From Bacillota bacterium (GTDB lineage Bacteria > Bacillota > Limnochordia > Darwinibacteriales > Darwinibacteriaceae), in the NCBI GenBank assembly GCA_012518735.1, contig JAAYRO010000171.1, positions 1 through 38,881 of the forward strand: a DNA stretch of 38,881 nucleotides, read 5' to 3'. Under the pieces are notes generated by a model. It saw only the letters and a program-made list of their open reading frames with translations. It was not told the origin of the DNA and searched no databases. A program made the translations under genes and the position numbers. Numbering within the stretch: position 1 is the stretch's first letter; the number at the start of each line of letters is the position of its first letter. Below are positions 4,601 through 23,476 of the stretch, one piece after another.

Positions 4601-5908
4601 GTGGAACCAAAACGAGTTGTCTGCTATCTAAATCAGTTCTTTGGTCAAATTGGTGGGGAATCAGAAGCCAATACTCCACCAAAGCAGTTTGATAAACCAG
4701 TTGGTCCTGCCATGGGGCTTCAACAGCTTCTTCCAAAAAACTGCCAAGTTGTAGGGACTGTGGTATGTGGTGACGATTACTTCAATGAACATTTGGACGA
4801 AGCTGGTAGAGCTATAGAGAGCATGTTGAAGAAGCTTGCTCCTGATGTAGTCGTAGCTGGTCCGGCCTTTAATGCTGGCCGATACGGGATGGCATGCGGA
4901 GCCGTGTCTAAAATTGCCCATGAGTTGGGAATTCCTGCCGTATCAGGTATGTACCCTGAGAACCCAGGGGTGGAAAGTTACAGACAATACGCATACATTA
5001 TAGAAACTTCCAACTCGGCAGCAGGTATGCGTCAGGCCCTACCTGCCATGGCAAAACTGACTGCCAAGATTTTGCAAAACGAACCTATTGGGTCACCAAG
5101 AGAAGAAGGATACTTGAGTCGAGGTATTCGAACAAATATTCAGGTAGATAAACGTGGTTCCGAACGAGCTATCGACATGCTCCTTAAAAAGATAGCTGGA
5201 GAAGACTTTGAAACAGAGTATCCTATTCCCCACTTCGATAGAGTGTCTCCTGCTGACCCCTTACAAGATTTAAGCACAGCAACGATTGCTCTCGTTACAA
5301 GTGGAGGAATCGTGCCTAAAGGTAATCCAGATCGAATCGAGTCTTCCAGCGCCTCAAAGTATGGAAAATACGATATCAGCAATATTACCTCCCTTCATTC
5401 TGATGAATTTGAAACAGCCCACGGAGGATATGATCCTGTTTATGCCAATGAATCCCCCAACCGAGTCCTGCCAGTAGATGTACTGAGGGAGCTTGAACAG
5501 GAAGGTAAAATCGGGAGACTCTATCCTTACTTTTATGCTACTGTAGGCAACGGCACCTCTGTAGCTAATGCTGTGAAATATGCTTCAGCGATTGCCCATG
5601 AATTGGTAAATGAAGGAGTTCATGCCGTTGTCCTTACCAGTACCTGAGGGACCTGTACCCGTTGCGGTGCAACGATGGTAAAGGAAATTGAACGAATGGG
5701 TTTGCCTGTAGTTCATATCTGTACTGTTACCCCCATTTCTTTAACAGTTGGAGCCAATCGTATTGTTCCAGCAGTAGCTATTCCTTATCCATTAGGTAAT
5801 CCGAAGCTAGGGGAAGTTGAAGAACGAGGATTAAGAAGAAAAATAGTGGAGAAGGCACTAATGTCTCTCACTAGACCTGTTACGGATCAAACAGTTTTCG
5901 AAGACTGA
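4601..5908 (+). CDS. grdB: Glycine reductase component B selenoprotein GrdB; TGA at 5645-5647 read as selenocysteine (Sec349)
   Basis: GTG start. Single frame 4601-5908 interrupted only by TGA in VVLTST-U-GTCTRCGATMVKEIERMGLPVVHICTVTPISLTVGANRIVPAVAIPYPLGNP, i.e. the UxxCxxC motif of GrdB. Confidence 0.96.
5657..5679 (+). promoter_or_regulatory. Candidate bacterial SECIS hairpin of grdB
   Basis: Starts 9 nt after the TGA: ACC-CGTTGC-GGT-GCAACG-AT-GGT, a 6-bp stem with GGT apical loop plus an outer ACC/GGT stem across a 2-nt bulge. Confidence 0.6.
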
Positions 5909-20212: not shown

Positions 20213-20374
20213 AGTGTCTCCTCTTTTAGGATTGCTATCCAAAGAGATTTGACAATTCATAAGTCGTACGGTAATATATTCTTAAAGAAGTCATTACGAA
20301 CGGGAAAGCCGACAAATTAGATAACCATTTTGAATCTATATTAAACTCCGTGTTAAAATTCCTTACCCAACCAC

Positions 20375-20403
20375 TTGACAATTATTCACTCTCATGTTAA
20401 AAT
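20375..20403 (+). promoter_or_regulatory. Sigma-A-type promoter driving the c-di-AMP riboswitch transcript
   Basis: TTGACA (20375-20380), 17-nt spacer, TAAAAT (20398-20403). Confidence 0.85.
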
Positions 20404-20410
20404 ATAGATG

Positions 20411-20531
20411 AAATCTCCGAAGACCGTTTAGGGAGTGGGGGAACCAATTTGTTGGGGTGAATCTTGATTTTTTCAGTCAAGAAGGGCGACTTGGGCGTCC
20501 TAACCCGTCAGCTAACCTCACAGGAGTACAC
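20411..20531 (+). ncRNA. Cyclic di-AMP riboswitch (ydaO/yuaA class)
   Basis: GGGAGTGGGGGAACCAATTTGTTGGGGTGAATCTTGATTTTTTCAGTCAAGAAGGGCGACTTGGGCGTCCTAACCCGTCAGCTAACCTCACAGGAG carries the hallmark blocks GGGGGAACC, GGGGTGAATC, AGGGCGA and CCCGTCAGCTAACCTC. Possible closing stem CTCC/GGAG. Boundaries approximate. Confidence 0.92.
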
Positions 20532-20534
20532 CAA

Positions 20535-20574
20535 GCGTATGATAAGCATATGAAAGCTTATTGTGCGCTTTTTG
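20535..20574 (+). terminator. Riboswitch expression-platform terminator
   Basis: GCGTATGATAAGC-ATATGAAA-GCTTATTGTGCGC: 13-bp stem (3 G-U wobbles) followed by TTTTTG. Confidence 0.85.
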
Positions 20575-20615
20575 TTATCTCGTTTTAGCACTTAAACAAG
20601 AAAGGAGATTAAAAA

Positions 20616-20786
20616 ATGAAAAAGAATCTTCTTAATGTCCGCGTTCCGTATTGGGATTTTAAAGGCCTTAATCCAAAATGGAATACCCAAGTAGAAAAGT
20701 ACGTATCAATAGAAAGTCATCCTCGTCAGAAGGTGGATCAATGGCCCAGCATGAGTTGGATACCAGCCACCTACCTAATGTTCTAG
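20616..20786 (+). CDS. 56-aa small protein under the c-di-AMP riboswitch; no recognised family
   Basis: Not in the supplied ORF list (below its size cut-off). RBS AAGAAAGGAGATTAAAAAATG. MKKNLLNVRVPYWDFKGLNPKWNTQVEKYVSIESHPRQKVDQWPSMSWIPATYLMF*. Followed within 15 bp by an intrinsic terminator. Confidence 0.8.
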   Translation: MKKNLLNVRVPYWDFKGLNPKWNTQVEKYVSIESHPRQKVDQWPSMSWIPATYLMF

Positions 20787-20800
20787 CAGTCAATACACTT

Positions 20801-20829
20801 AAGTCTCGGAGCAGCTCCGAGACTTTTTA
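20801..20829 (+). terminator. Intrinsic terminator after the 56-aa ORF
   Basis: AAGTCTCGGAG-CAG-CTCCGAGACTTTTT, 11-bp perfect stem plus T-run. Confidence 0.92.
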
Positions 20830-21088: not shown

Positions 21089-22531
21089 TCACAACAAGAA
21101 ATCAAATATTCCAGAAAATATTCTTAATAGTGAAACCACTGCCCGTTTGGACCATGGTATGGTTGACACAGCCTTGTTTACCCCTTCCCAAGTATCTGAT
21201 TCGCCTTGAATTACTGGTCGACTCTGCTCCATTTTGTTCTTGATGGCTTGACGTAACAGAGTATTGAACTCCTCACTGTGAATGACTAGCATCGTTTCCG
21301 TACTTAAAAAGCTGCTGCGAGCATCAATGTTAAACGAACCTACTGCACTGATGTGGTGATCAAAGACTAAGGCTTTACCATGCAAAGAGCCTGGCCCATT
21401 ATACTCCCAGATCTGCGCAGCCAAATTCTCCATAAGTCCCCTTTTTCGTTCATATCCAGCAATAGCTGATAGGTTGGGGCTGGCTGCAACGGAATTGGTC
21501 AGCAAAACGAGCTCTTTGCCAGCTAGAGAATCCTTGTCTAGATACTTTAACATAGCCTGCGTTGGTACGAGATAGGGGCTCTGTACTAACAAAGAGGCTT
21601 CAGCCTGTTCTGCAAGACGTGTTAATTCAACCCATACCCAAGGTGCCTTATTACCTCGTTGAATGGGGTTATGAATCAAAGTCACTTTCGAGGTTGGGAC
21701 GCTCTTTACCCTCAGCCATTTTTCAGCATCAAAAAGGTATTCGGAGTATTCGTCCCTAAACCAATTAAGTTGATGTGCCAAGTAATCCCTTCGAGCCTCA
21801 GCACGCTGGTTTCTCTTTTTGCTCATTTTGTAGACTGGGTTCACAGTGTAAGGGTGATCCCACAACAAATCGAAATACTCCTTCATTTGGGTTACGCCGC
21901 TTTGTTCCCCTAGACTATGGTCGCATTGAATAACGGCTACATCACGATCAAAAACTACATCTTTGGTCATATAGTCAGGCATGTAAAAACGATTGGCCAT
22001 ATTACGTCCGCTGATAATGCCTACTTTCCCATCAACAATCAGCAGCTTGTCATGTAAAAGATTCTGCCAAGTCCAAGGGCGCAGCAGATCAAAGGGCTCA
22101 TAAAACCTAAACTCGACATTGGGATGTTTCTGCAGGGCATAACGAACATCCCACATACTGCCATATAGTCCGTGAAAAATCCCATCCATTAAGATACGAA
22201 CATGTACACCCCCGTCGGCTGCTTCCAGAAGTGAACCAAGAAACACATCAGCAGCCAGCCCCGAATGAAGACTGTGATAGGCTGTGTCAATCGAATCCTG
22301 CGCGTTGCTGATGAGTCCCAAACGGACCCCGATGGTTTCATCCCACTCTTCGATCAATGCTACCCGATCACTGCCGAGACCTTCTCCCCAAAATCTATCC
22401 ACATTTGTGTTGGCTAAATAAGAATCGGCTGAGCGATAGGTCAAGCCAAAGTAGACGATTCCAGCCACGATTACATATAAAAAGTACAAAAGAACAATAC
22501 GGAAAAACCAACAAATTGAGCGTCTAATCAC
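21089..22531 (-). CDS. Phospholipase D superfamily / cardiolipin synthase-like membrane protein
   Basis: Two HxK(x)4D motifs: LLHDKLLIVDGKVGIISGRNMANRF and LHGKALVFDHHISAVGSFNIDARS. N-terminal TM. Confidence 0.92.
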   Translation of the reverse strand: MIRRSICWFFRIVLLYFLYVIVAGIVYFGLTYRSADSYLANTNVDRFWGEGLGSDRVALIEEWDETIGVRLGLISNAQDSIDTAYHSLHSGLAADVFLGSLLEAADGGVHVRILMDGIFHGLYGSMWDVRYALQKHPNVEFRFYEPFDLLRPWTWQNLLHDKLLIVDGKVGIISGRNMANRFYMPDYMTKDVVFDRDVAVIQCDHSLGEQSGVTQMKEYFDLLWDHPYTVNPVYKMSKKRNQRAEARRDYLAHQLNWFRDEYSEYLFDAEKWLRVKSVPTSKVTLIHNPIQRGNKAPWVWVELTRLAEQAEASLLVQSPYLVPTQAMLKYLDKDSLAGKELVLLTNSVAASPNLSAIAGYERKRGLMENLAAQIWEYNGPGSLHGKALVFDHHISAVGSFNIDARSSFLSTETMLVIHSEEFNTLLRQAIKNKMEQSRPVIQGESDTWEGVNKAVSTIPWSKRAVVSLLRIFSGIFDFLL

Positions 22532-22623: not shown

Positions 22624-23271
22624 TCAGTTCATTTTCCACAAAGGCTGTAAAGCCTTAAACAATCCAAATCCACTCACAGAAACAATGATGGCCTTTAGAA
22701 AATTGAAAGGCATGATGGCAAACAGGATTAACGTTCTCAAGTCTACAACGGACGAGTTAACCTTAGCTGCCATGCTGACAAACGCATCGACCGGATAGCC
22801 TAGCACCACTGCATACGCGGGAATAAAAATGAAGTAGTTCAGAATTCCACCTGCAATGGTCATGGAAAGCGTAGCAAGAATACAGCCAACAGCAACGCCT
22901 TTTCTAGACTGCCACTTCTCATAAGCTAACCCTAAGGGAATTACATAGGCTATACCAACTAAGAAATTAGCAAGCTCTCCAACTCCGCCTGTGTTACTCC
23001 TAACTATAATCTTTAGTACATTCTTAAGTAATTCTATCATTACACCAGCTGCAGGGCCCATGGCAAATGTACCAATAACTGCTGGAGCGTCACTTAGATC
23101 CAGCTTTAGAAATGTAGGGAAAATGGGCAGGGGAAAATCCAACAACATTAAAACCATGCCCAGCCCTGACAGCATTCCTATTTTTACCATTGAACTTGTC
23201 GTGAAAATACTGCTTTTTGCCTTACTTGCGTTTGGAATCATATCTAACCCTCTCTTCGTGATTTTTCCCAC
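22624..23271 (-). CDS. ribU: Riboflavin ECF transporter S component
   Basis: ECF S-component: MVKIGMLSGLGMVLMLLDFPLPIFPTFLKLDLSDAPAVIGTFAMGPAAGVMIELLKNVLKIIV, preceded by an FMN riboswitch. Confidence 0.93.
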   Translation of the reverse strand: MGKITKRGLDMIPNASKAKSSIFTTSSMVKIGMLSGLGMVLMLLDFPLPIFPTFLKLDLSDAPAVIGTFAMGPAAGVMIELLKNVLKIIVRSNTGGVGELANFLVGIAYVIPLGLAYEKWQSRKGVAVGCILATLSMTIAGGILNYFIFIPAYAVVLGYPVDAFVSMAAKVNSSVVDLRTLILFAIMPFNFLKAIIVSVSGFGLFKALQPLWKMN

Positions 23272-23302: not shown

Positions 23303-23353
23303 AGATAATCATCAGCGCGTGTAGAGAAATCGAAAGAGCTCTACAGCATTCTA

Positions 23354-23476
23354 CTCTTCTCTCATCCAGACTATACTGTCGGTTTTGGAATTTCACCAAA
23401 TCAACAACCCAAAGGCCGCTCGCGGACTGTCACCGCCGGTAGGGAATTTCACCCTGCCCCGAAGAATTTCTTATGC
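23354..23476 (-). ncRNA. FMN riboswitch (RFN element)
   Basis: Minus strand: TCTTCGGGGCAGGGTGAAATTCCCTACCGGCGGTGACAGTCCGCGAGCGGCC...GATTTGGTGAAATTCCAAAACCGACAGTATAGTCTGGATGAGAGAAG. Confidence 0.97.

Follow-up and report, generated by a model that had tools for sequence, protein, structure and literature searches.

Within the window (the whole 38,881-nt stretch of Bacillota DNA analysed here), a 56-codon gene lies on the forward strand behind a c-di-AMP riboswitch aptamer. The promoter, aptamer, terminator, ribosome-binding site, ORF and second terminator were all present where an earlier note on this DNA had placed them. The features of the locus are as follows.

20345-20369, + strand: site of a 25-bp element preceding the -35 (consensus TTTACGAAATNNGAATGATTACTAA), whose copy in the window's genome is degenerate
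20375-20380, + strand: -35 element TTGACA, read from the sequence
20398-20403, + strand: -10 element TAAAAT, read from the sequence; family consensus TGTTANNAT
20405-20542, + strand: c-di-AMP riboswitch aptamer, RF00379 (match over the full model, 1-134; 87.7 bits, E 2.5e-19)
20411-20418, + strand: P1 5' strand AAATCTCC, from the RF00379 alignment
20490-20494, + strand: CUUGG, loop of an aptamer hairpin, predicted to pair with CCAAG (20531-20535) after P1
20533-20576, + strand: intrinsic terminator 1, serving as expression platform, with a 15-bp stem and T-run, -19.6 kcal/mol
20604-20610, + strand: Shine-Dalgarno sequence (SD) GGAGATT, read from the sequence
20616-20786, + strand: gene for a 56-aa small protein of the HPRQK family, core QVEKYVSIESHPRQK; ATG at 20616, stop codon ending at 20786
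20801-20828, + strand: intrinsic terminator 2, 11-bp stem (20801-20825) and T-run, -16.9 kcal/mol, closing the unit

The promoter elements are separated by a 17-nt spacer. The aptamer score is far above the 38-bit cut-off of the covariance model, in agreement with the class proposed earlier, and a whole-genome search recovered the match at the same place in the window. Terminator 1 is formed by AAGCGUAUGAUAAGC/GCUUAUUGUGCGCUU (20533-20570) followed by the T-run; a terminator had been predicted here and is present, but its stem comprises 15 bp when G.U pairs are included, not the 13 bp first given. The P1 5' strand AAATCTCC is complementary to two segments: GGAG (20523-20526), which is the P1 3' strand, and GGAGATT, the SD.

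Two further RNA elements were found elsewhere in the window. An FMN riboswitch (RF00050, 120.4 bits, 23350-23470, - strand) precedes an ORF for a 215-aa membrane protein (22624-23271, - strand), which is probably a riboflavin transporter. A SECIS_4 element (RF01990, 58.4 bits, 5648-5685, + strand) suggests a selenoprotein gene.

A conserved small-protein family behind the aptamer

A protein search of 61 relatives returned weak matches; 13 of the matching loci were checked, and 8 had RF00379 just upstream. These eight homologues and the window protein were used to build a profile (A1). Of the 23 genomes in the window's GTDB family, 17 had a homologue by this profile, and a second profile (A2) returned the same 17 genomes among 73 of the class. 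Outside the family, profile A1 found no homologue in the order's remaining families, with the exception of one genome that gave two very weak matches (E about 0.04). Across a phylum sample of 398 genomes, profile A2 matched the window's genome alone, no other family member being among the rows listed. Scanning GTDB species contigs turned up eight true loci, all in metagenome-assembled Bacillota. A match in an Acidobacteria contig (L115) from the same scan was rejected as chance: its frame is an alternative one that overlaps a 421-aa ORF, and it has no RF00379 aptamer. No homologues were found in viral contigs, and searches of Pfam, NCBIfam and PDB (by sequence) gave no significant match, the best stray being DUF7067 (E 0.024, one member). 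As judged from these searches, HPRQK is a previously undescribed, lineage-restricted small-protein family of one GTDB family of uncultured anaerobic Bacillota.

The homologues are 47-59 aa long, and M1 and the motif E-x-H-P-R-[QH]-K are invariant, with Q in 16 of 17. By the Nei-Gojobori method, dN/dS was 0.13, 0.18, 0.13, 0.20 and 0.25 for the closest pairs with computable dS, and pN was below pS in all 136 of 136 homologue pairs. In divergent pairs dN/dS is biased by the protein-guided alignment, while the closest ungapped pairs are free of this bias. Mismatches in close, equal-length pairs fell mainly at the third codon position (6/3/14, 10/6/19 and 11/5/27 at positions 1/2/3, for example). 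Because of these ratios, the low pN and the third-position pattern, the ORF is, on substitution evidence, a real protein-coding gene under purifying selection; the synonymous bias that a genuine small gene should show across homologues was found. The earlier note expected routine annotation to miss the gene, though common gene callers do accept genes as short as 56 codons.

Linkage of ORF and riboswitch is complete in this set: an RF00379 aptamer precedes the ORF in 17 of 17 homologues, so that relatives retain both together. In 16 of the 17 the distance from aptamer to start codon is 70-86 nt, all 17 have a ribosome-binding site, and neighbouring gene families are common to the loci across genera. 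Terminator 1 is present in the window and in nearly all relatives of the class. The exception in both respects is genome G011, where the start codon lies 24 nt after the aptamer and terminator 1 is missing; since the ORF still stands behind RF00379 there, the pairing of aptamer and ORF appears to have outlived a change of expression platform. Among the 63 RF00379 sites of the 23 family genomes, no HPRQK-type leader lacked the ORF except in G006, where an eighteenth HPRQK-type promoter and aptamer runs into a contig end inside the aptamer. At loci L102 and L121 (G006), draft assemblies break inside riboswitches, probably because riboswitch cores are repeated in the genome. That a riboswitch gene is missing from a draft is weak evidence.

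Two readings would remove the small protein as the target. That the ORF is a chance frame, and the unit no more than a terminated riboswitch RNA or an sRNA, would fit its small size and its lack of any known family, but the purifying selection, the third-position pattern and the conservation of start, SD and stop in 17 genomes make this extremely improbable. The second reading makes the ORF a leader peptide and a longer gene downstream the real target; it draws on two genomes (G002, G004) with a co-oriented gene within a few hundred bases. Against it, a terminator follows the ORF in 17 of 17 homologues, and what comes next in most members is a convergent gene, which in the window encodes a PLD-domain protein (21089-22531, - strand). 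These two observations together argue that a longer gene is not the target, and we give this reading scarcely any weight. The claim of a complete monocistronic unit with the small ORF as the riboswitch target is thus supported by the layout from promoter to terminator 2 and by the linkage in all homologues.

The promoter is itself a family feature. Other HPRQK promoters have TTGAC[AGT]-N17 and a TGTTANNAT-type -10 element at the matching place, and the 25-bp element TTTACGAAATNNGAATGATTACTAA ends about 5 bp before their -35, conserved across genera. With up to three mismatches allowed, 12 of the 23 genomes have TTTACGAAATNNGAATGATTACTAA, as a single site in each plus one extra weak site; in 11 of them it stands at the HPRQK promoter, and in G006 at that of the contig-cut unit. 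A reversed control pattern gave 0 sites in the 23 genomes, and TTTACGAAATNNGAATGATTACTAA was not found at this threshold in the window's own genome. It looks like the site of a dedicated factor or a strong upstream promoter element. A role as a general regulator site was rejected: at up to three mismatches the element is essentially single-copy and specific to the HPRQK promoter, so no regulon can be read from it. Its Fur/Zur-like look in some members is an impression only.

The proteins are basic (pI 9.6-11.3) and contain no cysteine, and the C-terminus is hydrophobic in 16 of 17. The earlier description of the window protein as soluble-looking and free of TM segments was borne out, in that no TM-like stretch occurs in the family and the maximum 15-residue mean hydropathy of the window protein is 0.31; its Trp/Tyr richness is no family trait among the homologues. 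AlphaFold, run on nine homologues, gave one helix (residues 20-33) with low confidence (pLDDT 61, pTM 0.21), so no fold supports any particular function. Like the small-protein genes of bacterial stress regulons, HPRQK is short, forms a single-gene unit under a regulator that answers a stress signal and has no enzymatic domain, but it has no sequence relation to any searched family and no TM segment. Many described small regulators of transporters carry a TM segment. These properties hint at a soluble, partner-binding peptide, and the riboswitch class by itself would place its role in osmotic or cell-wall homeostasis.

Sign of regulation and a possible second layer

CUUGG and CCAAG are both kept at most of the 63 RF00379 sites. 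The c-di-AMP riboswitch RNA of T. tengcongensis has CUCCUUCG:CGAAGGAG at the corresponding pseudoknot place (sequence in PMC5393176), and we infer that CUUGG:CCAAG forms the 3' pseudoknot of the aptamer. One antiporter leader (L095, G007:C101) keeps the aptamer core and has lost the CUUGG loop, the CCAAG tail and the terminator together. The CCAAG segment shares three bases with the beginning of the 15-bp stem of terminator 1. The only candidate antiterminator, GCGACUUGG:CCAAGCGU, was about 16 kcal/mol worse than the MFE structure when forced, and the zinc-ribbon and Veg leaders described below do not conserve its outer part; it was rejected, CUUGG:CCAAG being better read as the aptamer pseudoknot.

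In the account that we prefer, transcription would start at the aptamer from the sigma-A-type promoter. At high c-di-AMP the aptamer would fold, with P1 and the 3' pseudoknot formed, and the hairpin of terminator 1 would stop transcription. At low c-di-AMP, RNA polymerase would read through and the 56-aa basic, soluble protein would be made. With its central helix, invariant E-x-H-P-R-[QH]-K and hydrophobic C-terminus, this protein may act as a partner-binding peptide in a c-di-AMP-governed K+/osmotic or envelope response. The order of aptamer and then terminator fits an OFF switch, and so does the behaviour of c-di-AMP riboswitches that have been tested: those of Dehalobacter (PMC9337991) and B. 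subtilis lower expression through termination, and the one of C. glutamicum nlpC does so at the level of translation (PMC9960051). Since the pseudoknot overlaps the terminator stem and the candidate antiterminator is costly, we infer the OFF sign, like the ligand, from the riboswitch class. Taken as a whole, a monocistronic c-di-AMP OFF unit for a lineage-restricted small protein, most likely a partner-binding one, is the explanation in which we have good confidence.

The same overlap could be read with the opposite sign. A bound aptamer that captures CCAAG would strip the base of the terminator and allow read-through, and closure of P1 would free the SD, giving genetic ON control. The three bases that CCAAG shares with the 15-bp stem, the joint retention of CUUGG and CCAAG at most of the 63 sites and the sign of the SD/P1 complementarity all fit such a switch. 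On inspection of the sequence, though, a 12-bp terminator stem would be left with the pseudoknot formed, and this reading runs against the behaviour of the tested riboswitches (PMC9337991, PMC9960051). We regard ON control as improbable.

The SD raises a further possibility. It reads GGAGAT in 15 of the 17 HPRQK homologues, against 1 of 63 GGAG-type SDs of long ORFs on the same contigs, and in the RNA its GGAGAUU is complementary to AAAUCUCC, the 5' strand of P1. By itself this complementarity predicts the opposite sign for translation. The mean SD/P1 helix was 6.7 bp for HPRQK and 7.8 bp for a second riboswitch-controlled small protein, a zinc ribbon, compared with 4.7 bp for Veg and 5.0 bp for antiporter leaders. 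Mean pairing probabilities of the SD with the P1 5' strand, from the partition function, were 0.33, 0.73, 0.00 and 0.11, respectively. In the zinc-ribbon class the complementarity reaches 12 bp (G.U included), and the leaders' own SD/P1 pairs beat 5000 of 5000 within-class permutations for a 9-nt segment. The HPRQK strands hardly vary, so the permutation test is uninformative for them at 8-9 nt; at 12 nt the result was marginal (218 of 5000 permutations), and part of that segment may precede the transcription start.

These data would be accommodated by a two-layer switch, in which the terminator is OFF and the SD of the read-through mRNA is masked by AAAUCUCC unless c-di-AMP closes P1. The P1 5' strand would then double as an anti-Shine-Dalgarno sequence in two unrelated small-protein families, combining termination with an oppositely signed translational gate. 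The biased SD, the longer helices and higher ensemble pairing in the small-protein classes and the zinc-ribbon permutation result favour it. They are offset by the lack of informative HPRQK covariation, by two genomes (G004, G011) without extended complementarity, by the descent that relates the compared sequences and by the opposite signs of the layers, which would be unusual for a riboswitch. We therefore hold the second layer to be a tentative and rather doubtful addition.

Comparison with known riboswitches and other targets

The unit resembles the ydaO/yuaA leaders (RF00379) of Bacillota in its full-length aptamer, its 3' loop pseudoknot and the terminator that follows, and a canonical type of target, a CPA2-type antiporter, is found under RF00379 in the same genomes. 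It differs in that its sole gene encodes a 56-aa protein and in the complementarity of the SD to the P1 5' strand. Described targets of c-di-AMP riboswitches are transporters, osmolyte enzymes and cell-wall enzymes (PMC7266159, PMC9337991, PMC9960051). The riboswitch of C. glutamicum nlpC controls a peptidase and has no canonical terminator, and its authors propose control of the ribosome-binding site through CUCC/GGAG pairing (PMC9960051). In contrast, the window unit has a strong terminator, and its CUCC is the P1 5' strand itself. A search of the open full-text literature, subscription papers apart, found no c-di-AMP riboswitch with a small-protein or microprotein target; a small protein as the target is likely novel.

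The 63 RF00379 sites of the family fall into four main classes, preceding a CPA2-type antiporter, Veg, HPRQK or the zinc-ribbon protein. The window's genome has three sites, which precede the HPRQK gene, a cluster of zinc-ribbon, 109-aa and Veg genes (C236) and an antiporter (C149). The zinc-ribbon protein is about 55 aa long with a CxxC...CxxC pattern, and in most leaders it starts about 60-75 nt downstream of the aptamer. In the C236 cluster its ORF lies behind RF00379 at L021:286-465, with veg (PF06257) at L021:471-1087 under the same riboswitch class; further loci of the zinc-ribbon protein are L043, L055, L058, L065, L072-L075 and L085-L088. Strong scores for this protein were obtained in 14 family genomes, and only weak matches elsewhere in the class. 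The veg gene sometimes follows the zinc-ribbon ORF and an ORF of about 100 aa without a Pfam match. In a search of the open literature, no paper mentioned Veg together with a c-di-AMP riboswitch.

If the SD/P1 pairing is functional, a single aptamer would govern transcription and translation together, by a mechanism that would be new. The ligand-free read-through mRNA would be masked, and c-di-AMP would unmask it, giving a pulse or band-pass response. The presence of Veg, the zinc-ribbon protein and HPRQK under RF00379 means that c-di-AMP control extends past transport in this lineage.
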